IMG/VR virus record: IMGVR_UViG_3300046010_007959
Span: 1 to 49,453 of that record
From: a virus
DNA length: 49,453 bases
Reading direction: 5' to 3' (one strand)
The position numbers and the translations under genes are program-made. Below are positions 3,756 through 25,394 of this stretch, in pieces. Position 1 is the first letter of the stretch; each line of letters begins with the position of its first letter. Below the pieces are notes generated by a model that worked only from the letters and a program-made list of their open reading frames with translations, had not been told where the DNA came from and made no database searches.

Positions 3756-3784
3756 ATTATACACGAGTGATAGGCAGTTGTCAA
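3756..3784 (-). promoter_or_regulatory. Consensus sigma-70 promoter (TTGACA-N17-TATAAT)
   Basis: Both hexamers match the bacterial consensus exactly: TTGACA at 3784-3779 and TATAAT at 3761-3756, with a 17-base spacer. It drives the membrane protein gene at 3749. Only 6 bases separate the -10 box from the ATG, so the mRNA would be leaderless or nearly so. Confidence 0.8.
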
Positions 3785-3787
3785 TCT

Positions 3788-6262: not shown

Positions 6263-6264
6263 TA

Positions 6265-7050
6265 CTAATCCTGTTTTGTAATGCGTTGATGATGTTCTAT
6301 AATAGGTGCGATTTCCGCTCTCAAATCTCTACTCAGAGGTCTATGTTGTTCTCTAATCCTTGATCTGGCACCATCTTCATCGGCTGTATGATGGCCAGCC
6401 ATAGCGTCTCTTTCGGTTTCTGAAATTTTCCCATAGATTTGGGTTTTTCTTTTAATCGCGGCCGGCGACACACTTGCATGACCATAATAAAAGATCACTA
6501 GATCTTTAAAAGATTGAGGTCCACCATGAAAATGCCTACCGGCCGAGTATTTTACTGGATAGTTGTGTATGCTGCGGTTCATTCTACCCATAGTACCACC
6601 TTTCATAATGCCGTTATTTATAAATTCATCGTATCCCCAATGGCATTGTTTGTGTAATGGATAGTTATAATCTAATATTGTTTGCCCTTGATCAGGATTT
6701 TCCATGTCAACAAAAACATAATTACCAACAAAATACTGTGTCGGGTCCAATAACTCTGCAAGATGATCTGTATTGCCGTACAAGAATTCAGTGACATTAA
6801 GACACATGCGCCATCCACCTAACATTTTTTCAATGTTCATGACTTCTTCGTCGACTTCAGCCGCATTAAAATGTTTGTTACGTGTATAACGGATTTCCCA
6901 GTCTGGACAGATCTCACGGATAATTTCCATGCTGCGATCAGTGCTGTAATAATCAATCATGATGCCATGATCAAATACTGCTTTATGATGCTTTAACCAC
7001 CATGGTAATAAAAACTCTTCATTGTAAAAGTGACATACAACTGTTTTCAT
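6265..7050 (-). CDS. Glycosyltransferase-like protein, paralogue B
   Basis: A 261-residue paralogue of the neighbouring transferase. The N-terminus MKTVVCHFYNEEFLLPWWL and the segments DHGIMIDYYSTDRSMEIIREICPDW and CLNVTEFLYG align with paralogue A, while the middle and C-terminal parts differ more. The pair looks like an old tandem duplication with divergence of the acceptor-binding half. An acidic pair VDMEN (about 109-113) is a candidate metal site. The start at 7050 touches the stop of the C-methyltransferase gene. It probably adds a different sugar in the same glycan. Confidence 0.7.
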   Translation of the reverse strand: MKTVVCHFYNEEFLLPWWLKHHKAVFDHGIMIDYYSTDRSMEIIREICPDWEIRYTRNKHFNAAEVDEEVMNIEKMLGGWRMCLNVTEFLYGNTDHLAELLDPTQYFVGNYVFVDMENPDQGQTILDYNYPLHKQCHWGYDEFINNGIMKGGTMGRMNRSIHNYPVKYSAGRHFHGGPQSFKDLVIFYYGHASVSPAAIKRKTQIYGKISETERDAMAGHHTADEDGARSRIREQHRPLSRDLRAEIAPIIEHHQRITKQD

Positions 7051-8261
7051 TACTCTACCTTAATAGTCGGAAAGTATCGAATAAACACATCACCTTCTTG
7101 GTCACGTTTAGTCTTAATTTTGCTACGGATTTCAGTGAAGAAATTCCAAGCCAATGGTACAAATGCTACCTTAACATCTTGACATTCGTCTAACATATCA
7201 ATATCTACTACAGGTATATTACTACCAGGACAGAACAATCCCTGTTTTAGAGGATTGTCATCTATGACGAAATCTAAGTTAATATCGCCAAAATTGATCA
7301 ATGTCATGCCCTTGGCCGCGGCGCCATAGCCCGCGATGACATATCCCAGACCGCGATAGTGTTGAATAGTCTCGTTGAGATCTTCCACGATAGTATAGCA
7401 ACGATCAGCATAGGTCGAATAGGTATTCATATCCTGCAGACCTTGTTCTCGTTCTTGATCTAATTGGAGCTGTACTGATTTCCTAGCACCAGGAACTTTG
7501 CTAAACACAAATACATAACTATTTCCATGTATTGGAGTTTTAGTTATGTCGATTATGTGCAGTCCGGCACGTTCAGCTAGAGCTGTCATCGACTTGCTGT
7601 TGAAGAAACTTAGGTGTTCATGATAGATAGTGTCAAACTCATTGTTCTTGATCATGTCAGCCTGACTGGTTTGTATGAATAAACGACTCTTGTCGTGCAT
7701 GATTTCTTTACACTGTTTTAAAAATTCCAATGGATAGCTGTTGTGCGCAAACACATTCTGCGCTGTGATGATGTCTAGATTCTTGCTGCCATAATGATAA
7801 GCATATTTGTCAGTGAAATAATCGCAGACCACGTCGTGGTTAGCTGAGCTCAACGGATGTAGGTTTTCAGCCGGATCAACACCATAGGTCTTTAATCCTA
7901 GAGCTTTGAATGAATTTAATTGACTGCCGTCGTTGCAGGCTATATCTAAAACTGTTTGTGGCGGAGTCTCAAAATATTCTAAGGTACGTTTAGCGAACCA
8001 ATCGAAGTAGTCACGGAGTGTCTGGCTGGTGCCACTTACATATAGATAGTTTTTAAACAATAAATCTGGATTTACTGCGTGGCTTAACTGTAGGTGTGTG
8101 CAGTCTTCACAGATGTTCAGCTTCAGCGGAAATAACAATTCCTCATCTTCCGCGGCTTTCTTAAAGCTGTTAGCCATTGGTTGTTCTTTTAGATCTAATA
8201 CTAGTTTTAATCTCTCACTGCCACAACACAGGCATTCTTTTAATTCTTTAGCATCTTGCAT
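7050..8261 (-). CDS. SAM-dependent sugar C-methyltransferase
   Basis: A 403-residue protein with the three-part layout of NDP-sugar C-methyltransferases (TylCIII/NovU type). An N-terminal zinc site is formed by C10/C13 and C51/C54 (CLCC and CEDC). A Rossmann domain carries the SAM motif VLDIACNDGSQL at about 104-115. A YHEHLSFFN segment near 213 resembles the conserved HEH region of the family, and the C-terminal domain contains a GYGAAAKG loop typical of the second nucleotide-binding fold. It would methylate a 4-keto sugar nucleotide, fitting the dehydratase encoded upstream. It overlaps the SDR gene by 14 bases. Confidence 0.85.
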   Translation of the reverse strand: MQDAKELKECLCCGSERLKLVLDLKEQPMANSFKKAAEDEELLFPLKLNICEDCTHLQLSHAVNPDLLFKNYLYVSGTSQTLRDYFDWFAKRTLEYFETPPQTVLDIACNDGSQLNSFKALGLKTYGVDPAENLHPLSSANHDVVCDYFTDKYAYHYGSKNLDIITAQNVFAHNSYPLEFLKQCKEIMHDKSRLFIQTSQADMIKNNEFDTIYHEHLSFFNSKSMTALAERAGLHIIDITKTPIHGNSYVFVFSKVPGARKSVQLQLDQEREQGLQDMNTYSTYADRCYTIVEDLNETIQHYRGLGYVIAGYGAAAKGMTLINFGDINLDFVIDDNPLKQGLFCPGSNIPVVDIDMLDECQDVKVAFVPLAWNFFTEIRSKIKTKRDQEGDVFIRYFPTIKVE

Positions 8262-9171
8262 AATCTTGTTCCCGATTATAAATTATATATTTGTCTCTCC
8301 ATTGCGGAGTTGATTGTTCATAACTTTCTATTAAACTATCTACTATTGTAGCAGGTGTAGCAGTAAACGTAAAGTCAAATGTTTGCTCAAATAGTCTAGT
8401 ATCTAATGCAAAATCATAGGCATTCACAGTAGTGCCTCGATCAATGATTTCAACACCTAGTTTAGCACTAACTGCCTTGGCTATCTCACCCACTGTGGCA
8501 TTGAAACTGGCAAGATTATAAATGCCCGGTACTGGTCGCTCAATACAGCTATTTACAGCACGGCATAAATCTTCTATGCCTAACATAGCACGGCTAATCT
8601 GCTTGTTCATTACCTGTATACCTGTGCCCATTTGTACGCTATGGTACATACTGTTAATCATAACGTCAACACGCAGGTTAGGTGCCCAACCATTGACTGT
8701 GCCAAAGCGTAGACCAATTACTTGACGACCGTTAAGGTTGGCTATGATTGCTTGTTGATCCAATGCGTATTTGGTAACATCATAGTTATTAACTGGCACA
8801 AATATCTTGTTAGTTTCTTTGTGTCGTTCACCGGGGGCACTGTTACCATAGACACTTGCTGAACTAGCATAGATAACCAATTGATCATCTAATTTTTCTA
8901 ATAGGTCTGTAAAGTTAGTTACATTGTTTAACCATGGACCCGGCAGTGCACCGTTGCAACTAGGAACACTACTGTGTCCAGCTAGGACCACAACTACTTC
9001 AAACTCTGCTAGTTCTTCTCTAGTAAGTTTTTGATAGTCTCTGCGGTCACTGGTTTCATCATGAGAAAACCAACAAATGTCGTTGGTCTTAACAAAATGA
9101 CTTTGTCTTAGTACTTGGCGTAACCTAGATCCAATGTAACCATCGCCACCTAGAATTAATACTTTTTTCAT
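8248..9171 (-). CDS. NAD-dependent sugar epimerase/reductase (extended SDR)
   Basis: A 307-residue extended short-chain dehydrogenase. GGDGYIG at residues 8-14 is the Rossmann NAD(P)-binding loop, SSASVYGN near 103-110 contains the catalytic Ser region, and YDVTK near 129-133 is the YxxxK pair. The C-terminal half has the substrate-binding helices of nucleotide-sugar epimerases. It lies between a glycosyltransferase-like gene and the C-methyltransferase with small overlaps, so it probably epimerises or reduces the keto sugar made by the dehydratase. Which reaction it performs cannot be decided by eye. Confidence 0.8.
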   Translation of the reverse strand: MKKVLILGGDGYIGSRLRQVLRQSHFVKTNDICWFSHDETSDRRDYQKLTREELAEFEVVVVLAGHSSVPSCNGALPGPWLNNVTNFTDLLEKLDDQLVIYASSASVYGNSAPGERHKETNKIFVPVNNYDVTKYALDQQAIIANLNGRQVIGLRFGTVNGWAPNLRVDVMINSMYHSVQMGTGIQVMNKQISRAMLGIEDLCRAVNSCIERPVPGIYNLASFNATVGEIAKAVSAKLGVEIIDRGTTVNAYDFALDTRLFEQTFDFTFTATPATIVDSLIESYEQSTPQWRDKYIIYNREQDYARC

Positions 9172-9908
9172 TAGTCAATGATCATCATGCCATTAGGAGC
9201 GATATTACCCATTAGTCCTACTGTTTCAATTTCAACTAATTGGTCTCTTGGAATAAACTTACTCATAGCATGTTCATTGTCAATATACTTGCCTTCGTTA
9301 AACAATTTAATCATGGTCTCAATGATATCTTTATACAACTGCATAGCATTCGATATCATAGCAGGAGTAAATGACCATAGACGTGTTTGTAATAAGGTAT
9401 TAACTCCGGTATCAGCTGGATTGATCCAGCTTGGTTGTGCTCGTTTAAACACGTATTTGTCTTTAGTATCAGCGTTGCTGAACTTAGCAATATCAAACTT
9501 GTCAGTTACTTGATAGCGACCACTGAGTTTAAAAATACGATCAGCATCAACAATAACTTTTTTCATGTCTTCATCACCGTTGATATAAGTCAATGCCTTC
9601 ATCATACCTAGAGCTTCCATGGCGTTCTTACCAATGTCATAGTTGGTAACATTGGCATGGAAGTACTTGATATCATCATCGTCACTGTTGTCGATATAAT
9701 AGTCGACCGTGTCGATCAGTTCTTCAAACTCTGCGCTGGTATCATTCTGCACATCCGTTTTGCTGTTGTCTACTAGAATGATGACTGCCCCAGGAATATA
9801 TTTCTTAGCACTCTTGGCCGTTTCTAATGTCTGCTTGATACGTTCTACAGGATTATAGATACCATAGTTAGTATACACTGCCGATGTTAGTAATACGATA
9901 TTTTTCAT
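9171..9908 (-). CDS. Glycosyltransferase-like protein
   Basis: A 245-residue protein beginning KNIVLLTSAVYTN, with ERIKQTLETAKSAKKYIPGAVIILVDNS typical of the first strand-helix-strand of a GT-A fold. The segment VDADRIFKLSGRY (about 118-130) resembles the Lys-Ser-Gly-Arg-Tyr signature of small phage and bacterial glycosyltransferases. It overlaps the SDR gene by one base and follows the dehydratase by 9 bases. An acidic run (NSDDDD, about 74-79) is unusual. Sugar specificity unknown. Confidence 0.6.
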   Translation of the reverse strand: MKNIVLLTSAVYTNYGIYNPVERIKQTLETAKSAKKYIPGAVIILVDNSKTDVQNDTSAEFEELIDTVDYYIDNSDDDDIKYFHANVTNYDIGKNAMEALGMMKALTYINGDEDMKKVIVDADRIFKLSGRYQVTDKFDIAKFSNADTKDKYVFKRAQPSWINPADTGVNTLLQTRLWSFTPAMISNAMQLYKDIIETMIKLFNEGKYIDNEHAMSKFIPRDQLVEIETVGLMGNIAPNGMMIID

Positions 9909-9917
9909 AGTTGTCCT

Positions 9918-10949
9918 TTATTCGCAACGTAACCAACGATCGTTTTTTAGTGTCCACTCAACCACTTCACCGATACGTTCTGTTAAACTAACCTTAGGTT
10001 CCCAACCTAAACTGCGCATGTAGTCACCGCTAAGAGCATAACGTAGGTCATGTCCTGGGCGTGAGCTATGGAAGTCAACCATTTCGTACTTCAATTCTTT
10101 TCCTTGCGCATCAGCGATAATCTGTGCTAGTTGTAGATTATTGATTTCTTGCTTGCCTACTAGATTAAACTTAGGACATTTAGCATCACCGTAGTCTGCT
10201 TCTAATTTGTTACTATCTAATCCCAACAAGAACATCATAGCATCTGCTACGTCCGCCGCATGGATATAGAAACGACTGCCCGGAATAGTACGGGTTGCGT
10301 CACTGTGGATAGTGATAGCATCGCCATCGTTTACCTTACGGATACACATTGGAATAAACTTTTCTGGGTGTTGGCGTTGACCAAACACGTTCATGGTATG
10401 TGTGATATAGATTGGCATCTTGTAGGTATTTTCAAATGCCACTGCTAGTTCTTCACCTCCAGCTTTGGTCGCTGAATATGGATTGCTTGAATTGTAACGA
10501 TCACGTTCAGCGTAATTAACACCGTTAGGTGCTGGACCAAATACTTCATCGGTTGAGAAGTAGATGAAACGTTCTAGATTTTTTAGTTTACGAGCAAACT
10601 CTAAGATATGGCCTGTGCCTACTACGTTGTCCCATACAAACTCCATTGGGAATTCGATACTGCGATCAACATGGCTACCGGCGGCTAAATGTAAGACGTA
10701 ATTCACATCACCAATATCTCTGGCTACCATTGGATTTAGTTCTGCCCGTAGATCATGAAACACGATCTTCACACGCTTACGTGTTTCTTGATCAAAATCA
10801 GTCATCATATCTGATAAGCGATTTAGATTACCCGAGAAGTCTAGTCTGTCTAAGCTGACTACGTTCCAATCGGTATTTCTTAAAATATTTTCAATAACGT
10901 GGTGTGCGATAAAACCCGCACCGCCAGTCACTAAGACGGTTTTTGACAT
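9918..10949 (-). CDS. dTDP-glucose 4,6-dehydratase-like enzyme
   Basis: A 343-residue extended SDR of the RfbB class, first gene of the glycan operon. TGGAGFI at 8-14 is the NAD loop, STDEVFG near 131-137 matches the STDEVYG active-site segment of NDP-glucose 4,6-dehydratases (Thr, Asp, Glu triad), and YSATK near 156-160 is the catalytic YxxxK. The length is close to the bacterial enzyme. It would make a 4-keto-6-deoxy sugar nucleotide, the usual substrate for the C-methyltransferase and epimerase genes downstream. GDP-mannose or UDP-GlcNAc dehydratase activity cannot be excluded. An AATAAATA late-type box lies 39 bases before the ATG. Confidence 0.8.
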   Translation of the reverse strand: MSKTVLVTGGAGFIAHHVIENILRNTDWNVVSLDRLDFSGNLNRLSDMMTDFDQETRKRVKIVFHDLRAELNPMVARDIGDVNYVLHLAAGSHVDRSIEFPMEFVWDNVVGTGHILEFARKLKNLERFIYFSTDEVFGPAPNGVNYAERDRYNSSNPYSATKAGGEELAVAFENTYKMPIYITHTMNVFGQRQHPEKFIPMCIRKVNDGDAITIHSDATRTIPGSRFYIHAADVADAMMFLLGLDSNKLEADYGDAKCPKFNLVGKQEINNLQLAQIIADAQGKELKYEMVDFHSSRPGHDLRYALSGDYMRSLGWEPKVSLTERIGEVVEWTLKNDRWLRCE

Positions 10950-11298: not shown

Positions 11299-11889
11299 TT
11301 AAAACTTAATCATGTAACCTGCATTGTAACCAACGAAGTCACTGGCACCATAGCTACGATCAATGCCTAATGTCAATGCTTGATCTTTAGCGATAGCGTA
11401 TTCAGCACCAAATCGCACTGTGTTTGTTTTTTCAATGTATGAATCATTGAACGCATCACGGAAACGGTATCCTGCTTTAACTGCTAAGGCATCTGTTAAA
11501 GAGTATTTAATACCTGGCTCAACTGAATAGTATGTATAGTCTTGATTTGAAGTAAACTTCTGACCCAGACCGCCACGTGTGTATAATGACACAGCTGGAA
11601 GTAGATTATATGAGTATGTAGCACCTGCTTCTAAACGTGTTGTGCTTACACCAGTATCATTGTTCAGACGTTCAGTACGGAACTGTTCACCTAGGTCAAT
11701 TGTTAGATTATCTAACACCTTGCGGCCAATCGTAAAGTTAACACCTTGTCTATTAGGTGCAGCTTTGTCATCAGCGATCGTGTCACGAAATGTGTACTGG
11801 ATGTGAGCAAAGTTTTTGCCGTCTTCAGCCATTGCTACTGTGCTAAATGATAGGCCAGCGATAAGTGTTGCGATTAAAGTTTTTTTCAT
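11299..11889 (-). CDS. Outer-membrane beta-barrel protein with signal peptide
   Basis: A 196-residue protein with a textbook Sec signal peptide: basic MKK, hydrophobic TLIATLIAGLSFSTV, and an AMA cleavage site at about residue 21. The mature part is made of alternating-hydrophobicity beta-strands (LEAGATYSYNL, VSLYTRGGLGQKF, LAVKAGYRFRD, TVRFGAEYAI) and ends in Phe (GYMIKF), the usual BAM recognition signal. This predicts a small 8-stranded barrel of the OmpA/OmpW/Lom size class inserted in the host outer membrane. A perfect TATAAATA late box lies upstream and a strong terminator follows. It may block superinfection or alter host permeability; host-derived porin decay is less likely because the frame is intact. 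Confidence 0.8.
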   Translation of the reverse strand: MKKTLIATLIAGLSFSTVAMAEDGKNFAHIQYTFRDTIADDKAAPNRQGVNFTIGRKVLDNLTIDLGEQFRTERLNNDTGVSTTRLEAGATYSYNLLPAVSLYTRGGLGQKFTSNQDYTYYSVEPGIKYSLTDALAVKAGYRFRDAFNDSYIEKTNTVRFGAEYAIAKDQALTLGIDRSYGASDFVGYNAGYMIKF

Positions 11890-12004: not shown

Positions 12005-13291
12005 TTAATAACGATAACTATCAGGTTTATATGGACCATCGATTGCAACGCCAATATATGTAGCTTGTTCAGCGGTCAGTGCTGTCAATTCCGCACCAAT
12101 CTTAGCCAAATGTAATTGGGCAACCTTCTCATCTAGATATTTTGGTAGTAGATATAGATATCCAGTTTGATAATCTTCAGTGTTGTTAAACATTTCAATC
12201 TGTGCTAGAACTTGATTAGTAAAGCTGTTTGACATAACATAGCTAGGATGCCCTGTAGCACAACCTAGATTAACTAATCTGCCTTTAGCCAAGATGATGA
12301 TCTTATTACCGTTTGGCAATTTCACATGATCTACCTGTGGTTTAATTTCGTCCCAGACTAAATCCTGTATACCAGCGATGTCGATTTCACTGTCAAAGTG
12401 TCCGATGTTACAGACAATGCTGTTATGTTTCATCTTAACCATGTGTTCACGAGTGATAACATCGATGTTACCTGTAGCTGTTACAAAGATGTCTGCCTTG
12501 TCTGCGGCATAATCCATAGTAACTACGCGATAGCCTTCCATAGCTGCCTGTAGTGCGCAGATTGGATCAATCTCAGTAACCCATACTTGTGCTGATAATG
12601 CTCGCAATGCCGCGGCACTGCCTTTACCTACATCACCAAAGCCTGCTACCACTGCTACTTTACCTGCAATCATTACGTCAGTGGCACGTTTAATACCATC
12701 TACTAAACTTTCACGGCAGCCATACAAGTTATCAAACTTGGCTTTGGTTACTGAATCGTTAACGTTGATAGCACGTAGTTTGAATGTGCCTTGAGCAATA
12801 GCTTCATTGATCTTATGGATACCTGTAGTTGTTTCTTCTGTAACACCACGGATTCCTTCTAATAGGTGCGGATGTTTTTCATGGATGTACCAAGTTAGGT
12901 CATGTCCATCATCGAGTAACATATTTGGCTGCCAATCGTTGGGACCACTGACTGTCTGTTCGATACACCACCAGTATTCTTCTTCTGTTTCGCCTTTCCA
13001 AGCAAATACAGGTATGCCTTGATCAGCTAGTGCGGCAGCGGCGTGATCCTGGGTTGAAAATATGTTACATGAACTCCATCTAACTTCTGCGCCTAATGCT
13101 ATTAAGGTTTCTACTAGAACTGCTGTCTGGATAGTCATATGTAAACTACCTGCGATACGAGCACCTTTCAATGGTTGACTTTGTCTGTACTCTTCTCTAA
13201 CCGCGATAAGACCTGGCATTTCAGTTTCTGCGATAGCAATCTCTTTATGTCCCCAAGCCGCTAAACCTATATCTTTTACTTTATAATCCAT
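12005..13291 (-). CDS. ahcY: S-adenosylhomocysteine hydrolase
   Basis: A complete 428-residue adenosylhomocysteinase, which splits SAH into adenosine and homocysteine and so relieves inhibition of methyltransferases. All hallmarks are present: SLHMTIQT near residue 49-56 (His51), [11 protein letters not shown] with K183 and D187 matching the human K186/D190 pair, the NAD loop GFGDVGKG at 217-224, and the C-terminal PYKPDSYRY tail that ends in the Lys and Tyr needed for NAD binding. It lacks the roughly 40-residue insertion found in many bacterial forms. The frame is open to a GTG at 13330 but ATG 13291 gives the standard N-terminus. It begins one base after the end of the QueF-like gene. Confidence 0.95.
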
Positions 13292-13292
13292 A

Positions 13293-13697
13293 TTAATCCT
13301 TATGATGTTGCCAAAGTTGATCAGTACCACCTAGGTGTCCCCAGTCACTGTCTACTGTCATTCTACTACTTATACCTCCACGAGGTCTATATTCAATTTC
13401 AATGCGTATACGATCTGGTTCATACACTGCCATGAGATCTTTATACATAACATCTAGTGCTCGTTCATAACTTAAACGAGTATCTCGATATTGGAAGATG
13501 TATTGCTTGAGGCTTTTTAATTCTATGGTCTTTTCTTTACCGTAGAACCAAATAGTCACGTCACCAAAGTCTGGTTGATTGGCACCACCTAAGAATGTAA
13601 ATTCAGGTATGCTGATACGTTGTTCGTATCCTCTAGCGGCATTTGGCAGACTTTTAAGCATCGATCGTTCGATGCTATCCCATAATTTTTTTTCCAT
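13293..13697 (-). CDS. QueF-like protein lacking the catalytic cysteine
   Basis: A 134-residue protein clearly homologous to the unimodular NADPH-dependent preQ0 reductase QueF. PEFTFL (31-36), QPDF (41-44), the hallmark ELKSLK (59-64) and RPRGGIS (104-110) all align with Bacillus QueF. However, the residue aligned with the catalytic Cys (LCPKTGQPDF in QueF) is Gly here (LGGANQPDF), and the His of the FHED motif aligns with Tyr in LSYERA, with only the Glu (78) kept. It therefore cannot form the thioimide intermediate used for nitrile reduction. It may bind a 7-deazaguanine or do different chemistry on it. It is translationally adjacent to the gene upstream and to ahcY. Confidence 0.8.
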
Positions 13698-17257: not shown

Positions 17258-18016
17258 CTATCTACGTTCTATGTCATCTTCACCACAGTAGTCGCCGTAT
17301 TGTACTTCGATGATATGACAGGGTTTGTTAAAAGGATTGAATAGTCTATGCCACTTGTTTATACTTACATGGTATGTGTGATGCTTGGTTAATATTTCTT
17401 GTATTAAACTGTTAGAAGGTAGCGTATAATGCTCAACCATACACTTACCGTCTGCAACTATCCACTCTTCAGAGCGTTCCATATGTCGTTGCATACTTAG
17501 ACTTTGCCCGGGACTGATAGTTAATTCCTTTACTTTAGCTCCAGAAACGTCATGTAATACACGATAATAGCCCCAAGGTCGGATGGTTTTCGGCGCTTTC
17601 CACTCCTCTAATATCCAACTGCTACTATTGAGCTTGTTTTCACCGCCTACACCAAATACAAACTCCACATCAGGTTCTGTCATCTCAGGTATGTTATCTT
17701 TAGTGCGATCACCACCATTGGCAAAAATGATCTGGCTGTTAGGGTACATGGTTTTGACATTACGTATAGCTTCAATAGCATGATCTTCTGTGTCGTTAAA
17801 CAATATACAATGATCAACCATACGAAGATGTTCGATGATCTGTATACGTTCATGACTGGGCATGAACTCACGACCTTTTTTACGGCGTAGCCAGCTGTCG
17901 CTGTTGACTCCTACTACTAGTATGTTACCTAGCTTCTTGGCAGCCTTGAGATATTCTATGTGTCCTGAATGCAGAGGATCGAATCCACCAGTACATAATA
18001 TCACACGATTGATCAT
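17258..18016 (-). CDS. Nucleotidyltransferase-cupin fusion
   Basis: A 252-residue protein joining two domains. Residues 1-135 are an RfaE/TagD-type nucleotidyltransferase: GFDPLHSGH at 11-19 is the HxGH-type active site, NSDSWLRRKKGR (38-49) binds nucleotide, and NSSSWI near 130-135 corresponds to the later family motif. Residues 145-252 are a mannose-6-phosphate isomerase-type cupin (RPWGYY, LSMQRHMERSEEWIV, KWHRLFNP, EVQYG) with candidate ligands in QRH and EE. The fusion suggests isomerisation or binding and activation of one sugar phosphate. It overlaps the methyltransferase gene by an ATGA junction and abuts the fucosyltransferase-like gene. Confidence 0.8.
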   Translation of the reverse strand: MINRVILCTGGFDPLHSGHIEYLKAAKKLGNILVVGVNSDSWLRRKKGREFMPSHERIQIIEHLRMVDHCILFNDTEDHAIEAIRNVKTMYPNSQIIFANGGDRTKDNIPEMTEPDVEFVFGVGGENKLNSSSWILEEWKAPKTIRPWGYYRVLHDVSGAKVKELTISPGQSLSMQRHMERSEEWIVADGKCMVEHYTLPSNSLIQEILTKHHTYHVSINKWHRLFNPFNKPCHIIEVQYGDYCGEDDIERR

Positions 18017-18927
18017 TTTGATTTGTAACTCTTTCTCGTAGGTGGTGTAGATTTTATTTTCATTGGTTTAAGCAAGGATGTTTCTTTGGTCTTAGGTTTA
18101 GCCTGTTCGATTGACATCTGCTCTGAGCTTGTGGTCTCATTGAAAACTCCTGTTGTTTCTGTGGCAGGAGGAAATTCCATCTGCCGACTGACATAGTCAA
18201 TGAAATAATTTTCCTTGTCTAGCCATGGCATGACTATTTCTTCTTGTTTAAGAAAGCCATTACTATTGATGCTATTCACTATGCTAGGATGTAATAGATT
18301 CTTATCAATGAGATCATACCATGTGGTAGTCATGGGGTCCATGGGTGCGATATCTGTCTTATAAACTGCCATCTGTATCCAGGGATCTTGGAATTTCTTT
18401 AAAAGATAAGCATCACGACAATCAAATCCATTAACTGCCAGCATGTAGATCAACATGATTGGAGTCCAATGGAAATAGGCTCCACTATAGCCTCTACTAA
18501 AATATCTATCATACTCTATACCTGTGTGTTGTTGCACCGTGACTAACAACATGCCATTTACTGTCATGTAGCTGTTCCACATGCGTAGAGTTTCCAAGGG
18601 GTTTAAACTATAGGTAAGGCTATCGTGTGCCCAGATTAGATCTATGCTGACCGGAAACAAGATTGGTCGATCATAGATGTCATGGATCTTGTGTATATTC
18701 TTGAGATTAGGAACCTGTGCTAGCCTGTCCTTGTTATTATCAACAGCAAAGCAATTGAAGTTATAGGGTTCTGGTGGATTATCGTTATTTTCTAAGGTGG
18801 CCCACCAGGTAATATCTTCACCAGATCCGCAACCTAGATCAGCTACGTGGCGTATACTTTCTAGAAAAGTGTCATACTGACGTATGGTTTCTAGTATATG
18901 TAGACTATGTCTAGCCAATTGATGCAT
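18013..18927 (-). CDS. SAM-dependent methyltransferase
   Basis: About 304 residues. VADLGCGSGEDI at 28-39 is motif I of a class I methyltransferase, a DN pair (FAVDNNKDR, about 60-68) binds the ribose of SAM, and DLIWAHDSLTYS (about 97-108) is the motif IV region. The last 60 residues are Lys/Thr/Pro-rich and likely disordered. I place the start at ATG 18927 (MHQLARHSLH); the frame is open to a TTG at 18987 and the GGAGG just before 18927 is too close to be an ideal ribosome site, so the start is uncertain. The substrate is unknown; context allows a sugar or a small molecule. Confidence 0.7.
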   Translation of the reverse strand: MHQLARHSLHILETIRQYDTFLESIRHVADLGCGSGEDITWWATLENNDNPPEPYNFNCFAVDNNKDRLAQVPNLKNIHKIHDIYDRPILFPVSIDLIWAHDSLTYSLNPLETLRMWNSYMTVNGMLLVTVQQHTGIEYDRYFSRGYSGAYFHWTPIMLIYMLAVNGFDCRDAYLLKKFQDPWIQMAVYKTDIAPMDPMTTTWYDLIDKNLLHPSIVNSINSNGFLKQEEIVMPWLDKENYFIDYVSRQMEFPPATETTGVFNETTSSEQMSIEQAKPKTKETSLLKPMKIKSTPPTRKSYKSK

Positions 18928-19366
18928 CCTCCATACCTGCTGTACGCAAGCGTGTAACGTGACCGAGCATGAAGTTCTTGCTTTCAAGTCCTTTCATGAT
19001 TCCCAACCACTTGTTTCGTAACAATGCTACTTCATTGATGATAGTCTCAAAGTCGATTACTTCATCTTCACCGTCTACATATTTTTCAGCATCGCGACTA
19101 GTTAAAGCACGAGCGTATCCTTCAAGATACTTCTGGAAGTGTTTTTTGCGTATTTTTCTTAATTGAATGTTGAGGTAATTAAGAACTGCTTCAATCTCTT
19201 GTAGTTGATTGAACCGTCGTTCTGTAATTCCGGGCAGGCCAGCAAGATTCTTTTCTATGTTACCATAGACTCCAACTTCCTTTCGTGCGTCTTCTAGTTC
19301 CCGTTCATAGTGCTGTATGAAATCAGGAATACTACCTAAACTTGCTACTACGCGGCTATACCACAT
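18911..19366 (-). CDS. uvsY: UvsY-like recombination mediator
   Basis: A 151-residue, mostly helical and charged protein two genes downstream of uvsX. T4 UvsY loads UvsX onto gp32-coated single-stranded DNA. The C-terminal part, with a D...VID..TIINEVALLRNKWLGIMKG pattern followed by SKNFMLGHVTRLR, resembles the UvsY ending (KSRGFAIKHIQDMR). Basic residues cluster at RKIRKKHFQKY (about 73-83), suitable for DNA binding. The start shares bases with the stop of the small acidic gene (TAATG). Sequence similarity is weak by eye, but gene order strongly supports the call. Confidence 0.75.
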   Translation of the reverse strand: MWYSRVVASLGSIPDFIQHYERELEDARKEVGVYGNIEKNLAGLPGITERRFNQLQEIEAVLNYLNIQLRKIRKKHFQKYLEGYARALTSRDAEKYVDGEDEVIDFETIINEVALLRNKWLGIMKGLESKNFMLGHVTRLRTAGMEDASIG

Positions 19367-19611
19367 TAATAATCATCACCTTCATCTTCATCATAGTCAG
19401 CTTCCTCGACTTCATCTTCACCTAGATATTCTACTAATGCTCGTTTGAGATAGCTGTCGGTTCCACCAAATGCTTTAAGATCGCTCTCGACGATGTTGTG
19501 ATCGGCTACGATAGCTAATACATGATCAGCAGCTGCCTGGCGATCCTTGGGTGCGATATACTCTTTGCAAGTTAACCATACTTCAGCTAATGCGTCTAAT
19601 TCAATGCTCAT
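19366..19611 (-). CDS. Small acidic protein between uvsX and uvsY
   Basis: An 81-residue protein with a helical N-terminal part (WLTCKEYIAPKDRQAAADHVL) and a strongly acidic C-terminal tail (EDEVEEADYDEDEGDDY). It is joined to uvsX and uvsY by TAATG overlaps on both sides, so the three are translationally coupled. Similar small acidic proteins occupy this position in marine T4-like phages as I remember them. A DNA-mimic or recombination accessory role is possible but unproved. Confidence 0.65.
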   Translation of the reverse strand: MSIELDALAEVWLTCKEYIAPKDRQAAADHVLAIVADHNIVESDLKAFGGTDSYLKRALVEYLGEDEVEEADYDEDEGDDY

Positions 19612-20693
19612 TACACTGTCTCCTCATCTAATATCGCTGGTGCTTCTGGCGCTGGACCTCCATCTAATAGTTTAGCATTAGCTGAAATCTCTTTCATGAC
19701 AATGTCTAAACAACCTTCTTCATTTGATTCCCAGGCTTTACGGAACTGTTTGATTTCTTTGCCATCAGCTGTAATAAACGCTAGACGGTTACCATCTTTC
19801 TTAAGCAGGCCTTTTGATTCCATCATGTCAGTTAAACCACTGTATGGATTCATACCTGTTTCATATGGAATCTTGATCTGCACTGATTCAAATGGTTTAG
19901 CATATCTAGTCTTCATGATCTTACATGCGGCACGAATACCTTTAACTTCACTAATCTTGTTACCATCTTCATCTTCTTTAAGTTTAAGTTTACGCATAGC
20001 AACTACGATTGAGCTAGCATAGATAAAGCCTTGACCACCTGAAATCTTATCATCTGGGTCAAACATGTCTTGCGATGCATAAGTGTGGTTAGTTGCCACT
20101 AGACCAACGTTATGACTACCAAACATGTTTACACAGTTACGAACAAGTGCTGTAAGTGCTTTAGGTTTACGGCCCATGTCACCTTTCAAATCACCTGCTT
20201 CAAATTGGTTGATGTCTGTTGGAGTTAGTAACATACCTAAACTGTCGATGACAAACAGAACTTTTGGACAGTCTTCTTTTGGTAATGTCTTGTATTCTTT
20301 CATAAACTCATGGATAGTTTTAGCCACGTCATCAATCATAGCTAAGTTAAGTTTTAATAACTTATCTTCGCTGGTATCTACACCCAGGTCATGCAACCAC
20401 TTTTCATCAAGTGCATTTTCTGTATCGACTAAGATAACATAGATGCCATCTTTCTGAGCGTTGCGGATTAAATTACCTGAACAGATAAATGATTTGCCTG
20501 CACCCGATTCACCTGCAAATACTGTGACTTTTCCCAATGGTACTCCGCGGTGGAAGTCTCCACTGATTAGGTAATTAAGTGTGTAATTGCCTGTTGAAAT
20601 CCAATCAGTAGGATCGTTAAATCCTGTACTAAGTCCGTCGATTGACTTGGTAATTGATTTTCTAAATTTTGATATATCAAATGGTTTTGCCAT
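19611..20693 (-). CDS. uvsX: RecA-like recombinase UvsX
   Basis: A 360-residue recombinase that catalyses strand exchange in phage recombination-dependent replication. Walker A is GESGAGKS at 61-68, and Walker B is LFVIDSLGML in the 140s-150s. GGQGFIYASSIVV further on resembles the DNA-binding L2 and core region of RecA-like proteins. The acidic C-terminus (LDEETV) is short. It starts 2 bases after the stop of the first radical SAM gene, with its ribosome site (AGAGG) inside that gene, which ties uvsX translation to the accessory cassette. Confidence 0.92.
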   Translation of the reverse strand: MAKPFDISKFRKSITKSIDGLSTGFNDPTDWISTGNYTLNYLISGDFHRGVPLGKVTVFAGESGAGKSFICSGNLIRNAQKDGIYVILVDTENALDEKWLHDLGVDTSEDKLLKLNLAMIDDVAKTIHEFMKEYKTLPKEDCPKVLFVIDSLGMLLTPTDINQFEAGDLKGDMGRKPKALTALVRNCVNMFGSHNVGLVATNHTYASQDMFDPDDKISGGQGFIYASSIVVAMRKLKLKEDEDGNKISEVKGIRAACKIMKTRYAKPFESVQIKIPYETGMNPYSGLTDMMESKGLLKKDGNRLAFITADGKEIKQFRKAWESNEEGCLDIVMKEISANAKLLDGGPAPEAPAILDEETV

Positions 20694-20695
20694 GA

Positions 20696-21853
20696 TTATT
20701 GCCTCTCTAATAAATTATATAATTCTGGAAATACTGTCTTGCTGTTAACGTTACGTCGTTGATCCATCTTTGCTATCTCTGCTAAACAGTATTCGATATT
20801 CTTTTCTACGGGTTCTTTTATATACTGTAACACATTTCTAAGACCGTTTTCAAGTAAAAATCCTGGTTTCTGATTAATCCAGTTTTCTAATTCTCGCTCT
20901 ATTGATTGTAACATAGTATTTGGTAAATGTCTAATATTTAGGTAGTCTGGATTCAATAGTGCTCCTATCACAAAACTATTATCATGAAATCCCATATTTT
21001 TAAAGAATCTAATAGTATCAAATATCGATCGATAATTTAACAAGTGATGTAACATATTAAATGATATCTTATGATTGAGCTTACTGATTTGTTTAAGATT
21101 ATCTAGAAAATCTTGCCAGGTTCCGCCATGTCTAATATATTCAAATTCTGTGCCCATTTCGTCGATACTCACGGTCCAATGTACATTAGGAAACTCACAT
21201 ATTTTTTCAAATACTCTTGTGCCTGTCTTGCTTAAATTAGTGTTTATCCTAAGATTAACTTGAGGATTTTTTTCCTGCAATAGTTCTAATAACTCTAGAT
21301 TTTCTTTCATCAGCAAAGGTTCACCGCCTGCTAGATAAACATGCTTTAATTGTTCTACACGATCAAAAACATATTGTTTCATCTGTTGTAATCTGCGTTG
21401 TGGAACCTCATCAAACTTTACTCCTAATTCAGTAGCCCATTTACTGCTGAATTCTGGACTGCAATATGCGCAGGCAAAATTACAGGTATTGTTCCAGCGT
21501 ATGTCAATAGCACTTAAATTAAATGTGTCGATACTTTTATAAGTGTTAAGATCAACATCTTTAAGTTCTTTAAGATAAAACACACGATCGCTGATAATGT
21601 CAAAACTTTTAGTATCTCGTTCTAAATCGTAACAAACATTACAAGTCGGACCGGGTTTGTTATAATACATATTGTGCTTGGTTGTTAAGTTAACTTCGCC
21701 TTGCAGTATCTCTGTAATACTATTTTCTTTTAAATTACCGATAGGTGCAGGATTGCGGATACAGTTCTTCACTGTGCCGTCAAAGTTATACATAAATCCT
21801 GTCCAGGGAATAGGACAGAAGTTTTTATCTGTTAGATATTTTTTGCTATCCAT
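20696..21853 (-). CDS. Radical SAM protein with N-terminal cysteine (twitch-like) module
   Basis: A 385-residue radical SAM enzyme. The 4Fe-4S/SAM motif is CNFACAYC (C124, C128, C131), and AGGEPLL (about 155-161) is the SAM-binding GGE motif. Ahead of the core, C13, C31, C71 and C74 form a CX17C...CX2C set that could hold an auxiliary cluster, as in SPASM/twitch proteins, though placed N-terminally. WTVSIDEMGTEFEYIRHG fits the beta-4/5 region of the barrel. It overlaps the short SDR gene by 22 bases and precedes uvsX by 2. Substrate unknown; peptide, sugar or nucleotide modification are all possible. Confidence 0.85.
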   Translation of the reverse strand: MDSKKYLTDKNFCPIPWTGFMYNFDGTVKNCIRNPAPIGNLKENSITEILQGEVNLTTKHNMYYNKPGPTCNVCYDLERDTKSFDIISDRVFYLKELKDVDLNTYKSIDTFNLSAIDIRWNNTCNFACAYCSPEFSSKWATELGVKFDEVPQRRLQQMKQYVFDRVEQLKHVYLAGGEPLLMKENLELLELLQEKNPQVNLRINTNLSKTGTRVFEKICEFPNVHWTVSIDEMGTEFEYIRHGGTWQDFLDNLKQISKLNHKISFNMLHHLLNYRSIFDTIRFFKNMGFHDNSFVIGALLNPDYLNIRHLPNTMLQSIERELENWINQKPGFLLENGLRNVLQYIKEPVEKNIEYCLAEIAKMDQRRNVNSKTVFPELYNLLERQ

Positions 21854-22323
21854 TCTACTATTCCTCGAGCATATTCATCTACATCCATATACTCAGGTGG
21901 ATGTTGCCTTGGTTGTGTTGCGATGGCCCCTGGACGCACCAACAATAGTCTCGGCCATTCGGATCTTTGTTCTAATAACTGTGTTGATAAATCTAATGCT
22001 TTTTTCTGTATGATATATTCGTCCCATTCTTCTTTCGGCGGTAAGAACATGTCAGTCATCTGTGTGCCAACGTTGACGATATATTTCTGTTGTCCTCTCC
22101 AACGTCGCCAAACTTCAAATAATAATTCTGTTTGAGCATATCCAACTTGTGCGTTGTTAATAAACATATCACAAGGTTCAATCATACCTGCTACCTTAGG
22201 TATGCTACGAATGTTATAACCATTACGACGGCTAAGTCCGACTATTTCATGGCCCTGACTATCATATATTTTTGCTAGGGCTTGTCCTATACCTGCACTA
22301 TGTCCTGTGATAGCTATCTTCAT
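21832..22323 (-). CDS. Short SDR oxidoreductase-like protein
   Basis: A 163-residue minimal Rossmann protein. TGHSAGIGQALA (6-17) is the classic SDR nucleotide-binding loop TGxxxGIG, NNAQ near 56-59 matches NNAG, and YIIQKKAL gives the YxxxK catalytic pair. The C-terminal substrate region is very short compared with the usual 240-260 residues, so this is a minimal or specialised form. ATGA overlaps join it to the oxygenase-like gene, and it overlaps the first radical SAM gene by 22 bases. It may reduce or oxidise the product of the cassette. Confidence 0.75.
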   Translation of the reverse strand: MKIAITGHSAGIGQALAKIYDSQGHEIVGLSRRNGYNIRSIPKVAGMIEPCDMFINNAQVGYAQTELLFEVWRRWRGQQKYIVNVGTQMTDMFLPPKEEWDEYIIQKKALDLSTQLLEQRSEWPRLLLVRPGAIATQPRQHPPEYMDVDEYARGIVEWIAKNI

Positions 22324-22874
22324 CGTAATAAATGTTGTGGATCGTTAACAAATGTAAAGCTGGCCACTACCCTTGGTAATTTTGTCGCTGTTATTTTAAT
22401 AACACTGTGTGGTATTCTCGAATTGAACACTACAGGTTTAGATAAGTCATGTATTTCTGCTAATACAGGTAATGTATCAGCATCTAAACTGCTAACATCT
22501 TCCTGCTCACTACCAAATTGATTTTTGGTTTTAGGTAACTGTGCTATTTCTTTTTCGCTTACATTATACCAACGATTTATCCATCCTTGTGTGTTTAGTA
22601 TAGGAATATTAATTTTTGCTACCATTGGTGGTGCGTCTAAATGCAAAGGTAAATCATCATATAATACCGTAACTGCGGCATTTTTAACATATAGTCTATG
22701 TTTTAGAAAAAATTTAGCCAAGTGTGGACTAGAAGTTACTAATTTTTTAGTTTCAACAAACTGCCAATTTTTAAAATCGAGTGACCCTAATTCTGTTTGA
22801 TCTGAGAGGAATTTATAGATATCACACTGTATGGTGTGCAGATCATCGCAGGTTAATTCTGCATAGGGTTTCAT
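22320..22874 (-). CDS. 2-oxoglutarate/Fe(II) oxygenase-like protein
   Basis: A 184-residue protein with the layout of aspartyl/asparaginyl hydroxylase-type 2OG oxygenases: LHLDAPP with H78 and D80 as Fe ligands, AKINIPILNT (86-95) as the strand after them, the distal IPHSV with H156, and PRVVASFTF with R168 for 2-oxoglutarate. The spacing is normal for the double-stranded beta-helix fold. It would hydroxylate a protein, sugar or small molecule. It is coupled by ATGA overlaps to the radical SAM gene upstream and the SDR gene downstream, so it is part of one cassette. Confidence 0.7.
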   Translation of the reverse strand: MKPYAELTCDDLHTIQCDIYKFLSDQTELGSLDFKNWQFVETKKLVTSSPHLAKFFLKHRLYVKNAAVTVLYDDLPLHLDAPPMVAKINIPILNTQGWINRWYNVSEKEIAQLPKTKNQFGSEQEDVSSLDADTLPVLAEIHDLSKPVVFNSRIPHSVIKITATKLPRVVASFTFVNDPQHLLR

Positions 22875-23755
22875 TCCATACCTCTTAATCGTTTTTGTTC
22901 TTGTATGTATGCCAGAGACTCCAGAGTATCTTTATTTTCAACCGCCAGTTCTGATGGTTCTTTAAGATAGGCATAACTATGATCTAATTTGTGTAATTTA
23001 ACAAACTCTAATATATTAGGTAAGTCATCTACGTTCAATACACTAACCGTAGTCCAAGTGTTTAGTTTAACCGGCATTTCCATATAACGTTGCAAGTTTG
23101 CATAGAACTTATCCCATTTAACAGGCCAACGCACTAGATCATGTACGGGGCCGATACCATCGAGACTGACTGTTACTGTGACCTGTACACCACGACGGCA
23201 TAGGATCCACAGTTCTTCTAATACTGTGCTACAGTTTGTATTGAGCCTGACACTTTTAATATTCTTAGGTAAGTTTGCTAGTATATGTTTATAGTTTTTA
23301 CTATAGCTAGGTTCACCGCCATTGATATCTAAATGTACTACCCTATCTAAAGGTAACTCCCAAAATTTACTAGAATTGTCCACAATTGGATATGTTTTAC
23401 TTTTTAATCCGCCAATTAGTGTGCTTAGATTTTCGTTACAAGTCAGACATGCGCTATTACATATATTATCAAGCACCCCTCCCACTGACAGATAATCTTC
23501 TTGTTTTTGCAATTGATCAAATTTAATAGCGTTTAATCTAATACTAGTGTTATTTTCCTGTTCTGTTTGTTTACATCTTTCACACCATTTAGGCCAGAGG
23601 CCTTTGTGCATAGATAATTTGACATTACGCAACCACAGGCTTTCGTCCATTTCCTCAAGTGTATTAAACTCTGGTGCATCAACCATGTGGCCACAACGGC
23701 CGACAGTACCGTTGGGATTTAATCGCACGAAATGATCTAGTCTAGGGCAATGCAT
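22871..23755 (-). CDS. Radical SAM protein with the same N-terminal cysteine module
   Basis: A 294-residue radical SAM enzyme. The cluster motif is CNSACLTC (C99, C103, C106), and NGGEPSYS in the 145-155 region is the SAM-binding GGE motif. The N-terminal cysteines C3, C21, C58 and C61 have the same CX17C...CX2C spacing as in the other radical SAM protein of this cassette, although the two sequences are otherwise quite different. VTVTVSLDGIGPVHDLVR is the barrel beta-4/5 region. It overlaps the sulfotransferase-like gene by 19 bases. The substrate is unknown; the shared module suggests a related substrate or partner. Confidence 0.85.
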   Translation of the reverse strand: MHCPRLDHFVRLNPNGTVGRCGHMVDAPEFNTLEEMDESLWLRNVKLSMHKGLWPKWCERCKQTEQENNTSIRLNAIKFDQLQKQEDYLSVGGVLDNICNSACLTCNENLSTLIGGLKSKTYPIVDNSSKFWELPLDRVVHLDINGGEPSYSKNYKHILANLPKNIKSVRLNTNCSTVLEELWILCRRGVQVTVTVSLDGIGPVHDLVRWPVKWDKFYANLQRYMEMPVKLNTWTTVSVLNVDDLPNILEFVKLHKLDHSYAYLKEPSELAVENKDTLESLAYIQEQKRLRGME

Positions 23756-24369
23756 TGTAATTTTGAATATGCTATAGGATCTTGACTGTGTAAGTGAGCC
23801 AATATCTCACTGAATGTAACTTCCTGACCTATCATTTCTAATAGATAATGATCCAGACGTTGATACATTTCATTATGTAAATTATTTTTTAGTCGGTCTA
23901 CTACTTCTGCAGACAGCATATTTGTTTCTTCTGGTTTAATTGATATGTTGGTAAACTTACTTATCGCTGTCATATCATGCAATCGTAGCACAGTATCTTT
24001 GTTAATATACTTAGACAAATTAACAATCCAACTTATTTGAGGGGCATAGTGTCTATTTAAAAACAAATACTCTTCAGCAAAGTATATAACAGTATCTACG
24101 TCTAATTGTGGATTATTACGTTTGGTATTGTAGACATAGGTGTTAAATCCAGACAAAAATCTCTGCATAGGATCGCGCAAGATGATATCTACTATCGGTA
24201 TACGTTTAATTTGGTCGTTTATTAGTATCTTACAGTTATTCTGGCGAACATGTTCATAAAAACTACTACTGCCATTTTTATAAATGGGATAGATGCCCCG
24301 TTGTGAAGCTTCTATTTCTATAACTTCACAACGGTTAGGAAAGATAATGTCATCAATCCTACTTAACAT
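23737..24369 (-). CDS. Sulfotransferase-like protein
   Basis: A 210-residue protein with two PAPS-binding signatures: IYPIYKNGSSSFYEH (27-40), where K31 and the Ser/Gly loop match the 5'-phosphosulfate loop, and ILRDPMQRFLSGF (63-75), matching the 3'-phosphate site RDPxxRxxSG. The middle is helical, as in sulfotransferase family 2 proteins. It follows gp32 by 11 bases and is the first gene of the five-gene cassette before uvsX. It likely moves sulfate from PAPS to a glycan or small molecule; the acceptor is unknown. Confidence 0.7.
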   Translation of the reverse strand: MLSRIDDIIFPNRCEVIEIEASQRGIYPIYKNGSSSFYEHVRQNNCKILINDQIKRIPIVDIILRDPMQRFLSGFNTYVYNTKRNNPQLDVDTVIYFAEEYLFLNRHYAPQISWIVNLSKYINKDTVLRLHDMTAISKFTNISIKPEETNMLSAEVVDRLKNNLHNEMYQRLDHYLLEMIGQEVTFSEILAHLHSQDPIAYSKLQCIALD

Positions 24370-24380: not shown

Positions 24381-25394
24381 TTAGTTTGTCTTTTGACGGT
24401 TACGAATCATCGCTAGGATGTCTTCGGCACGTGCTGTTCCACCTGCAGGGGGTGTTGCAACCGGTGCTGTAGGAGCCGCTGGTGCAGCCTCTGTAACCAC
24501 TGGAGCTGGTGTGTCTTCAATTTCATGCACATCACCATGACCATCAACTGTCAGTGTAGGAGCGACTACTGCCGGAGCAGCTGATTCAGCCGAGACGATT
24601 GTTACGCCTCTTGGTTTGTAATAATTACCCCAACGATCTGCGTCATATGCTTGACCATCAACTGACGCTTCAAACATCTCTTTCATGACTTTAAGTTCAA
24701 CTTCGCTTGGTTTCTTAGGTAAGAAATCTTTCAAGTTGTATAAGCCATGAGTTTCGATTGCTGCCGCTTCTTCTGCTGTTAATGCAGATTCTTTACGTGA
24801 CCATTTACTTGTTGAATAATCAGCATACCCACCTTTTGATGTTTTAGTAACTGTAAAGTCTAAACCACCTTGGTAGTCTGTTGGTAAGTTTTCTAACTCT
24901 GGATCAAGCAGTGCTGATTTGATCAAGTTAAAAATCTGTGGACTAATAATAAATCTACGGATTGGATTTTCTGGTGTCTTATCGTCTGTGATAGGATTCT
25001 CACGCACAAAACCTTGGAACAAGTATGATCTTTTCTTCCAATACTTACGACCCATTTCTTCTAGACTTTGGTCTTTAAACCAAGTACGAACTTCTGCTAA
25101 GATTGGACATGCTTCACCCCACATCTCAACGCATGGTACTTGTACAGTGACTGGTTTACTATCTGCTTGACCTTTAACGCCAGCAAACGGTAAATTGATC
25201 ATTGCTCGTTCTGCCCAAAAGAATGTGTTTTTTGTGTCTGCGTCTGGAAGGAATCTAATGCGAGCGTTTGTGCCTTCTTGGATGTTCCAGTGTGCGTAGA
25301 TAGCGTTGTCGCCACCACCTTGTGAATTACCGCCTGTGCCACGGTTTTCTGATGCTTGTAACTTTGCACGGATTTCTGCTAATGATGTTGCCAT
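24381..25394 (-). CDS. 32: Single-stranded DNA-binding protein gp32
   Basis: A 337-residue protein with the T4 gp32 layout: a short basic N-terminus (LAEIRAKLQASENR) for cooperative binding, an OB-fold core (ARIRFLPDADTKNTFFWAERAMI, RRFIISPQIFNLIKS, GLDFTVTKTSKGGYADYSTSKW) and a Pro/Ala-rich C-terminal linker (about 270-320). Only two cysteines occur in the core (88 and 96), so the T4-type zinc site (His/Cys3) looks incomplete. The C-terminus ends in a basic helix (AMIRNRQKTN) instead of the usual acidic tail, which is odd. An AAGGAG ribosome site precedes the ATG. It is the first gene before the cassette and uvsX/uvsY. Confidence 0.88.
   Translation of the reverse strand: MATSLAEIRAKLQASENRGTGGNSQGGGDNAIYAHWNIQEGTNARIRFLPDADTKNTFFWAERAMINLPFAGVKGQADSKPVTVQVPCVEMWGEACPILAEVRTWFKDQSLEEMGRKYWKKRSYLFQGFVRENPITDDKTPENPIRRFIISPQIFNLIKSALLDPELENLPTDYQGGLDFTVTKTSKGGYADYSTSKWSRKESALTAEEAAAIETHGLYNLKDFLPKKPSEVELKVMKEMFEASVDGQAYDADRWGNYYKPRGVTIVSAESAAPAVVAPTLTVDGHGDVHEIEDTPAPVVTEAAPAAPTAPVATPPAGGTARAEDILAMIRNRQKTN

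Follow-up and report, generated by a model that had tools for sequence, protein, structure and literature searches.

The window analyzed here is a 49,453-base virus contig (IMG/VR record IMGVR_UViG_3300046010_007959) with the gene set of a myovirus, including a tail sheath, a T4 gp15-like protein, a large terminase, gp32 and uvsX. Our subject is a cassette of five genes that fills the gap between gp32 and uvsX; all of these genes lie on the minus strand. The gene for the gp32-like single-strand DNA-binding protein (24381-25394; phrog_1192, 1.7e-66) flanks the cassette on its 5' side and would be the first gene of the proposed transcription unit. It is followed by SULT, encoding a sulfotransferase-like P-loop protein of 210 amino acids (23737-24369); rSAM2, encoding a radical S-adenosylmethionine (SAM) enzyme of 294 amino acids with an N-terminal twitch domain (22871-23755); OXY, encoding a protein of 184 amino acids with the fold of 2-oxoglutarate (2OG)-Fe(II) oxygenases (22320-22874); SDR, encoding a compact short-chain dehydrogenase/reductase of 163 amino acids (21832-22323); and rSAM1, encoding a second radical SAM enzyme with an N-terminal twitch domain, of 385 amino acids (20696-21853). 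The uvsX recombinase gene (19611-20693; phrog_97, 1e-68) is the 3' flank. We refer to SULT, rSAM2, SDR and rSAM1 as core genes and to OXY as an optional member. A first-pass annotation, made from the letters of the window, had placed the five genes at these positions and had named both flanks, and the profile matches uphold these calls.

Consecutive cassette genes overlap by 19, 4, 4 and 22 nucleotides in the order of transcription, in agreement with the 4 to 22 bases originally claimed, while 11 nucleotides separate the gp32 stop from the SULT start and 2 separate the rSAM1 stop from the uvsX start. In relatives, almost all cassette junctions retain an overlap; SULT and rSAM2 overlap at 173 of 173 junctions, and SDR and rSAM1 at 201 of 203. 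The ratio of nonsynonymous to synonymous substitution rates (dN/dS) of the cassette genes against their relatives is 0.04-0.13, which is like or below that of uvsX; judged by these ratios, all cassette genes are under purifying selection. Because the overlaps recur in relatives and the genes have such low ratios, we consider the overlaps to be real and not a product of chance. Just upstream of gp32 is a terminator-like hairpin (25537-25517, minus strand), which is consistent with a single gp32-cassette-uvsX transcript; the window has 6 terminator-like sites, versus 3.4 in shuffled sequences. There is also a promoter-like site near gp32 (25498-25470, minus strand), although promoter-like sites are no commoner in the window than in shuffles.

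We scanned IMG/VR with rSAM1, rSAM2, OXY and gp32, and with divergent members, and re-annotated the nearly 300 loci obtained with our own profiles. These relatives are uncultured contigs, many of them under 10 kb, and were dereplicated solely by k-mer similarity. All four core genes are present in 75 of the 123 non-redundant gp32-uvsX intervals that are complete; 41 contain none and only 7 hold a partial set; most of these intervals were fetched by way of cassette genes, which inflates the apparent share of phages with the cassette. The gp32-anchored survey by itself, whose intervals were not fetched by cassette genes, comprises 11 full and 48 empty intervals, one with SULT and rSAM2, one with a SULT stub and three with an unrelated SDR only. 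OXY is an optional member of the cassette: it occurs in 29 of the 75 full sets and in one partial set (30 of the 76 sets that have three or four core genes), is absent from all 41 empty intervals and is never found without other cassette genes. The incomplete sets consist of SULT and rSAM2 only (L030, L033 and L188), of rSAM1 alone (L273), or of sets that lack SDR (L145) or rSAM1 (L015 and L058). Locus L208 has rSAM1 alone at another site, and the gp32-uvsX gap of L140 holds a 56-residue SULT remnant that looks like a deletion scar.

The most telling evidence that the genes form a unit is, in our comparison of loci, their rearrangement. Besides the order SULT-rSAM2-(OXY)-SDR-rSAM1, an alternative order, SDR-rSAM1-SULT-rSAM2, is found in L090, L211, L236-L240, L265, L266 and L269, and the L180 clade has SULT-OXY-rSAM2-SDR-rSAM1. 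At a second site (L204-L207), close to genes for DnaB-like helicase and primase-like proteins, the order is SDR-rSAM1-SULT-rSAM2 with OXY on the opposite strand; among the variants of this site, L209 differs in arrangement and L108 has the other four genes. SDR lies directly before rSAM1 in every arrangement, barring a few losses, and SULT lies directly before rSAM2 except in the L180 clade, where OXY stands between them. The pairs SDR+rSAM1 and SULT+rSAM2 thus outlast reordering. The pairwise distances of cassette genes remain correlated after the uvsX signal is removed (partial rho 0.31-0.52), with the highest values for SDR-rSAM1 (0.52) and SULT-rSAM2 (0.41).

It might be supposed that the gap between gp32 and uvsX is a hot spot and that the five genes are cargo without a joint function, which travel together by descent. 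Some relatives do have other cargo in the gap, and the partial sets and the SULT stub mentioned above would fit such a situation. However, partial sets make up only 7 of the 123 intervals, the set is found again at another site and with several gene orders, and its genes combine strong purifying selection with coupled overlaps. This explanation is therefore largely refuted, and we give it very little credence. In view of the nearly all-or-none occurrence, the second site, the persisting pairs and the purifying selection, the cassette genes are co-inherited as a unit, and it is highly likely that they constitute a single co-functional pathway with four core enzymes and an optional OXY. The small, co-transcribed modification pathway that the first-pass annotation had proposed thus gains support from co-inheritance and from conserved overlaps; genes found singly at random sites, which it held would speak against the proposal, are not the pattern that we observe.

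Several further genes accompany the module at the second site. Most of these loci contain a third radical SAM gene with an N-terminal SPASM-like match (e.g., L205, 7990-9027, plus strand), as well as an opposite-strand gene for a protein that is SGNH-like by eye and has no Pfam match (e.g., L205, 12636-13352, minus strand). In the phage contig L207, which has the module at this site, ferredoxin, SufE and FeS_assembly_P genes are found at 2940-4043, and these are a possible iron-sulfur supply for radical SAM enzymes.

The uvsX of the window is 60-70% identical to that of isolated jumbo phages such as Vibrio phage 2.275.O, Agrobacterium phage Atu_ph07 and Sinorhizobium phage Phosso. Since gp32 is followed directly by uvsX in the isolated jumbo phages, i.e., their site is empty, the cassette would be either an insertion into an otherwise conserved gene pair or an old block that has been lost many times. 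These isolates have no radical SAM gene over the family cut-off, and tblastn searches of 50,697 phage records found nothing with four cassette genes and only a weak Rossmann match with SDR, so the module is absent from the isolated phages of that set as far as these searches show. In L135, L136, L143, L159 and L150 the gap is occupied by alternative, unrelated cargo, including a 3.3-kb set of four genes, one of them for a distant SDR, an Asp/Asn-hydroxylase-like protein (clear in L159) and SGNH-type lookalikes, the latter recognized by eye. We considered a homing endonuclease as the agent of gp32-uvsX insertions and rejected it, as there was no such match among the nine representative inserts sampled.

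A location next to gp32 and uvsX could also mean that the cassette modifies phage DNA or nucleotides. The first site is inside the replication and recombination block, the second is near helicase and primase genes, and a QueF-like T-fold gene is present in the window. However, the block contains no DNA-binding or base-synthesis gene, and we know of no enzyme that sulfates DNA using 3'-phosphoadenosine-5'-phosphosulfate (PAPS). Because the gp32-uvsX gap serves as a cargo slot, which in many relatives is empty or occupied by unrelated genes, we regard a DNA role as very unlikely.

We next consider the enzymes themselves. Both radical SAM proteins score above the 29.5-bit cut-off of PF04055 (rSAM1 62.9 bits; rSAM2 32.3 bits, 1.4e-7). 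The first-pass annotation had attributed to both a CxxxCxxC core and the same extra CX17C...CX2C set, and these cysteines are not only present but invariant: C13-X17-C31, C71-X2-C74 and C124-X3-C128-X2-C131 are kept in 44 of 44 rSAM1 relatives, and C3-X17-C21, C58-X2-C61 and C99-X3-C103-X2-C106 in 46 of 46 rSAM2 relatives (the auxiliary set of rSAM2 is encoded at 23573-23749, minus strand). It had also noted that the two proteins differ elsewhere, and outside the cysteine sets they are indeed only about 27% identical. In rSAM1, a match to the SPASM family PF13186 above its cut-off (residues 13-74) precedes the PF04055 match (residues 122-283). This twitch-then-radical SAM order is that of the N_Twi_rSAM family, NF033640, of which rSAM1 is a member (257.5 bits versus a cut-off of 170). 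rSAM2, while it has the same cysteine layout, reaches 131.9 bits over residues 10-274, and is therefore a relative that would not be filed as a member. The extra cysteine set is thus a known domain type and not an unprecedented one. However, the family name gives no function, and a partnership with SDR, SULT and OXY lies outside the family's definition. Viperin-like or QueE-like roles were also considered and rejected, as these weak matches reflect generic radical SAM similarity and rSAM1 fits NF033640 far better.

A better-characterized comparison is BtrN (4M7T), a radical SAM dehydrogenase from the butirosin pathway, which oxidizes an alcohol of an aminocyclitol and whose auxiliary cluster is held by four cysteines (PMC9012708). 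The rSAM1 profile matches BtrN, pairing the N-terminal twitch domain of rSAM1 (residues 12-87; 21593-21820, minus strand) with the C-terminal one of BtrN (4m7s, 168-249). Four cysteines for one auxiliary cluster are present in both cassette proteins (C13/C31/C71/C74 in rSAM1 and C3/C21/C58/C61 in rSAM2), although their ligation of a cluster is predicted. In BtrN, however, the twitch is C-terminal to the barrel, whereas in rSAM1 it is N-terminal. The extra cysteine set of both proteins is thus a twitch domain for an auxiliary cluster, similar to that of BtrN but in a permuted position.

The SDR protein scores 19.7 bits (6e-4) against PF00106, under the cut-off of 26.6, but has the motifs TGxxxGIG, NNA and YxxxK in 48 of 48 relatives. 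As PDB sequence searches with profiles of OXY and SULT gave no relevant match, the folds of these two proteins were predicted. OXY has no match in sequence-family searches (Pfam, PHROG and NCBIfam), and just 1 of 29 OXY relatives matches PF05118 (Asp/Asn hydroxylase), weakly (0.024). Its AlphaFold2 (AF2) model has a predicted local distance difference test (pLDDT) score of 94.8 and a predicted template modeling (pTM) score of 0.90, and a fold search of the PDB with this model gave 132 matches at E<=1e-3; almost all of the 50 listed carry the names of 2OG-Fe(II) enzymes. Candidate iron ligands are found in H78-x-D80 (22635-22643, minus strand; H78 in 29 of 29 relatives and D80 in 28 of 29), with H156 as a candidate active-site residue (22407-22409, minus strand; 29 of 29) and R168 as a candidate 2OG-binding arginine (22371-22373, minus strand; 29 of 29). 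By its modeled double-stranded beta-helix fold and its HxD...H...R residues, OXY is a member of the 2OG-Fe(II) oxygenase superfamily.

SULT scores 16.6 bits (0.009) against PF03567 (Sulfotransferase family 2) over residues 62-84, under the cut-off of 22 bits, and 10 of 59 SULT relatives match this family at E<=0.05. Its AF2 model (pLDDT 88.9) has as its top viral fold match a sulfotransferase-family protein (E 1e-14), and 8 of the 10 best viral matches are named sulfotransferases. Phage sulfotransferase-family proteins (BFVD A0A6J7WGY4; Prochlorococcus phage P-SSM7 E3SP23) resemble the predicted fold of SULT, with 33% identity to the best. Residues 27-35, YPIYKNGSS (24265-24291, minus strand), are a candidate 5'-PAPS loop with K31, in which K31 and N32 are kept in 58 of 59 relatives, and residues 65-73, RDPMQRFLS (24151-24177, minus strand), are a candidate 3'-phosphate-binding motif (R65 and R70 in 59 of 59; S73 in 58 of 59). 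By its modeled fold and these candidate PAPS motifs, the assignment of SULT as a sulfotransferase holds, and thus both the oxygenase and the sulfotransferase calls of the first-pass annotation survive scrutiny by profiles and structures.

These enzymes suggest how the pathway might work. SULT, rSAM2, OXY where present, SDR and rSAM1 would be made by coupled translation of the gp32-uvsX transcript and would act on one substrate. The persistent pairing of genes suggests two steps, with one radical SAM enzyme in each. Both twitch enzymes would take a hydrogen from a C-H bond and pass an electron to the auxiliary cluster held by four cysteines, thereby oxidizing an alcohol carbon by two electrons, as BtrN does. 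SDR, paired with rSAM1, would reduce or epimerize at the resulting carbonyl, with net inversion or deoxygenation; OXY might add a hydroxyl; and SULT, paired with rSAM2, would sulfate a hydroxyl or amine using PAPS of the host. Such a cassette probably makes a sulfated, oxidized product, most likely a modified sugar, which phages are not known to produce. Glycans of the infected cell or of the virion would probably be decorated in this way, e.g., against superinfection or with effects on host recognition.

Our preferred but tentative prediction, to which we assign somewhat less than an even chance, is that the substrate is a carbohydrate: a sugar, an aminocyclitol or a glycan residue on a surface or virion. 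Three weak, independent hints suggest this, none of them decisive: the BtrN-type twitch; the fold neighbors of OXY, which in the PDB matches listed include the sugar-tailoring antibiotic enzymes AviO1, KanJ, EvdMO1 and SnoN; and the heparan-type matches of SULT. We also counted in its favor the nucleotide-sugar genes found elsewhere in the window. It is important to emphasize that there are several points to be set against a carbohydrate substrate. Each hint is weak by itself. The fold matches of OXY have TM-scores of about 0.5 and also include prolyl hydroxylases and FtmOx1, while the PDB fold matches of SULT, headed by heparan-sulfate sulfotransferases, have E values of 0.02 or worse. rSAM2, SDR and SULT are all under curated family cut-offs, and the function of twitch/SPASM proteins is, as the authors of a study of such networks warn, unreadable from similarity networks (PMC6231123). 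Moreover, the cassette block has no glycosyltransferase or nucleotide-sugar gene, such genes lying at 4678-10949 and 17258-18016, and the neighboring genes for a nucleotidyltransferase/cupin and a methyltransferase are present whether the cassette is there or not.

Some of the same enzyme evidence could be read as pointing to a peptide or protein, namely a ribosomal peptide or a virion or host protein. The cassette enzymes would then act as SPASM/twitch radical SAM enzymes do on ribosomally synthesized and post-translationally modified peptides (RiPPs), while OXY would hydroxylate the target and a side chain would be sulfated. The nearest solved radical SAM cores of the cassette enzymes include SkfB, a sactipeptide synthase; many of their weaker NCBIfam matches are peptide maturases; and the Asp/Asn hydroxylases recur, both in the PF05118 match of an OXY relative and in the same-site insert of L159. 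However, the module leaves no room for a precursor (a median of 0 nucleotides is uncovered inside it, across 164 loci), although a precursor or target protein could be encoded elsewhere. Neither radical SAM protein has a fused N-terminus like the RiPP recognition element (RRE), since this part is the twitch, whose first cysteine is residue 13 in rSAM1 and residue 3 in rSAM2; free-standing RREs were outside the search. Because there is neither spare sequence for a precursor nor a fused RRE, we consider RiPP-like chemistry rather unlikely.

Another product to consider is a small, diffusible compound with an antibiotic-like or signaling role. The enzyme set resembles tailoring enzymes of aminoglycosides and orthosomycins, and a precedent has been argued in the case of cyanophage S-SSM6a, with its halogenated amino-acid/sugar cluster (PMC7824862). 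However, at neither site does the block contain a recognizable transporter, self-resistance gene, scaffold-building enzyme or activation enzyme, and a diffusible metabolite seems to us a good deal less likely than a carbohydrate substrate.

The carbohydrate prediction can be made more specific, at the cost of confidence: it is possible, though less likely than not, that two permuted, BtrN-like radical SAM enzymes, one with SDR and the other with SULT as its partner, alter the structure of a host or virion sugar and sulfate it, in a viral pathway that has not been described. The first-pass annotation knew of no phage pathway with this combination. This stands for the enzyme set, as in the literature on phages, radical SAM enzymes and sulfotransferases we found no description of the set, the two sites or the pairings. 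However, it does not extend to the general idea. Cyanophages P-SSM2 and S-SSM6a have gene clusters for glycans or lipopolysaccharide and for halogenated sugar-amino-acid compounds, which resemble the cassette in being phage-borne, multi-gene tailoring systems with 2OG oxygenases, nucleotidyltransferases and cupins that vary between relatives, but for which no radical SAM/SDR/sulfotransferase core is described (PMC7824862). In contrast to these clusters, the present block lacks glycosyltransferases and has a conserved order between gp32 and uvsX. Similarly, the parts of two reports consulted here describe T4-like environmental phages rich in radical SAM genes, with 12 in one genome, together with iron-sulfur assembly genes (PMC5332604), and radical SAM cassettes with cassette-like gain and loss in pelagimyophages (PMC7029224); in those parts, the genes are counted, and no pathway is proposed and no sulfotransferase module named.

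Radical SAM genes are abundant in some aquatic T4-like phages, and the module could show one use of their chemistry. It is a bounded unit of four core genes plus one, is conserved as a set in over 100 uncultured phage contigs at two sites, and offers natural losses of single genes. It could reveal new radical SAM reactions on a permuted twitch scaffold as well as a viral sulfation step. If the sugar pathway is real, a phage-made sulfated glycan that remodels virion or infected-cell surfaces would be widespread in large aquatic phages.

Further radical SAM genes are found outside the cassette. Downstream of uvsX, a second cargo slot between the genes g81 and g151 often holds one or two more radical SAM genes, about 25% identical to rSAM1, as in 24 of the 70 loci where both flanks are seen (e.g., L017, 5300-6604, and L101, 11249-13815). 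The L186 contig (G015, IMG/VR, 260,723 bases) has 12 N_Twi_rSAM matches, 11 of them over the cut-off, and no strong SULT match; by these profile matches, the family is expanded beyond the cassette in this phage group. An rSAM1 scan of our genome collection found only distant proteins, at 22-27% identity, mostly in arrays of Bdellovibrionota. These bacterial arrays (L110-L117) combine several N-terminal-twitch radical SAM genes with other radical SAM genes. In one of them (L117), a twitch radical SAM gene adjoins an SDR-like gene (9291-9863) whose product can be aligned with the phage SDR (hhalign probability 95%), although a search of these genomes with the SDR profile did not extend the pairing to others.

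Lastly, we list other genes of the window, all on the minus strand. The nucleotide-sugar block at 4678-10949 encodes a GDP-mannose dehydratase-like protein, an epimerase, a sugar C-methyltransferase (PF08421/PF08484) and two GT2-like proteins. At 17258-18957, a fusion of a HIGH-type nucleotidyltransferase and a mannose-6-phosphate-isomerase-type cupin lies beside a methyltransferase, and this pair is conserved downstream of uvsX irrespective of the cassette. A gene for S-adenosylhomocysteine hydrolase (441 amino acids), which to our knowledge is unusual for a phage, adjoins that of the QueF-like T-fold protein (134 amino acids) at 12005-13697; the hydrolase could recycle by-products of the phage's SAM-dependent methyltransferases. 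Finally, an outer-membrane beta-barrel protein (PF13505) is encoded at 11299-11889.

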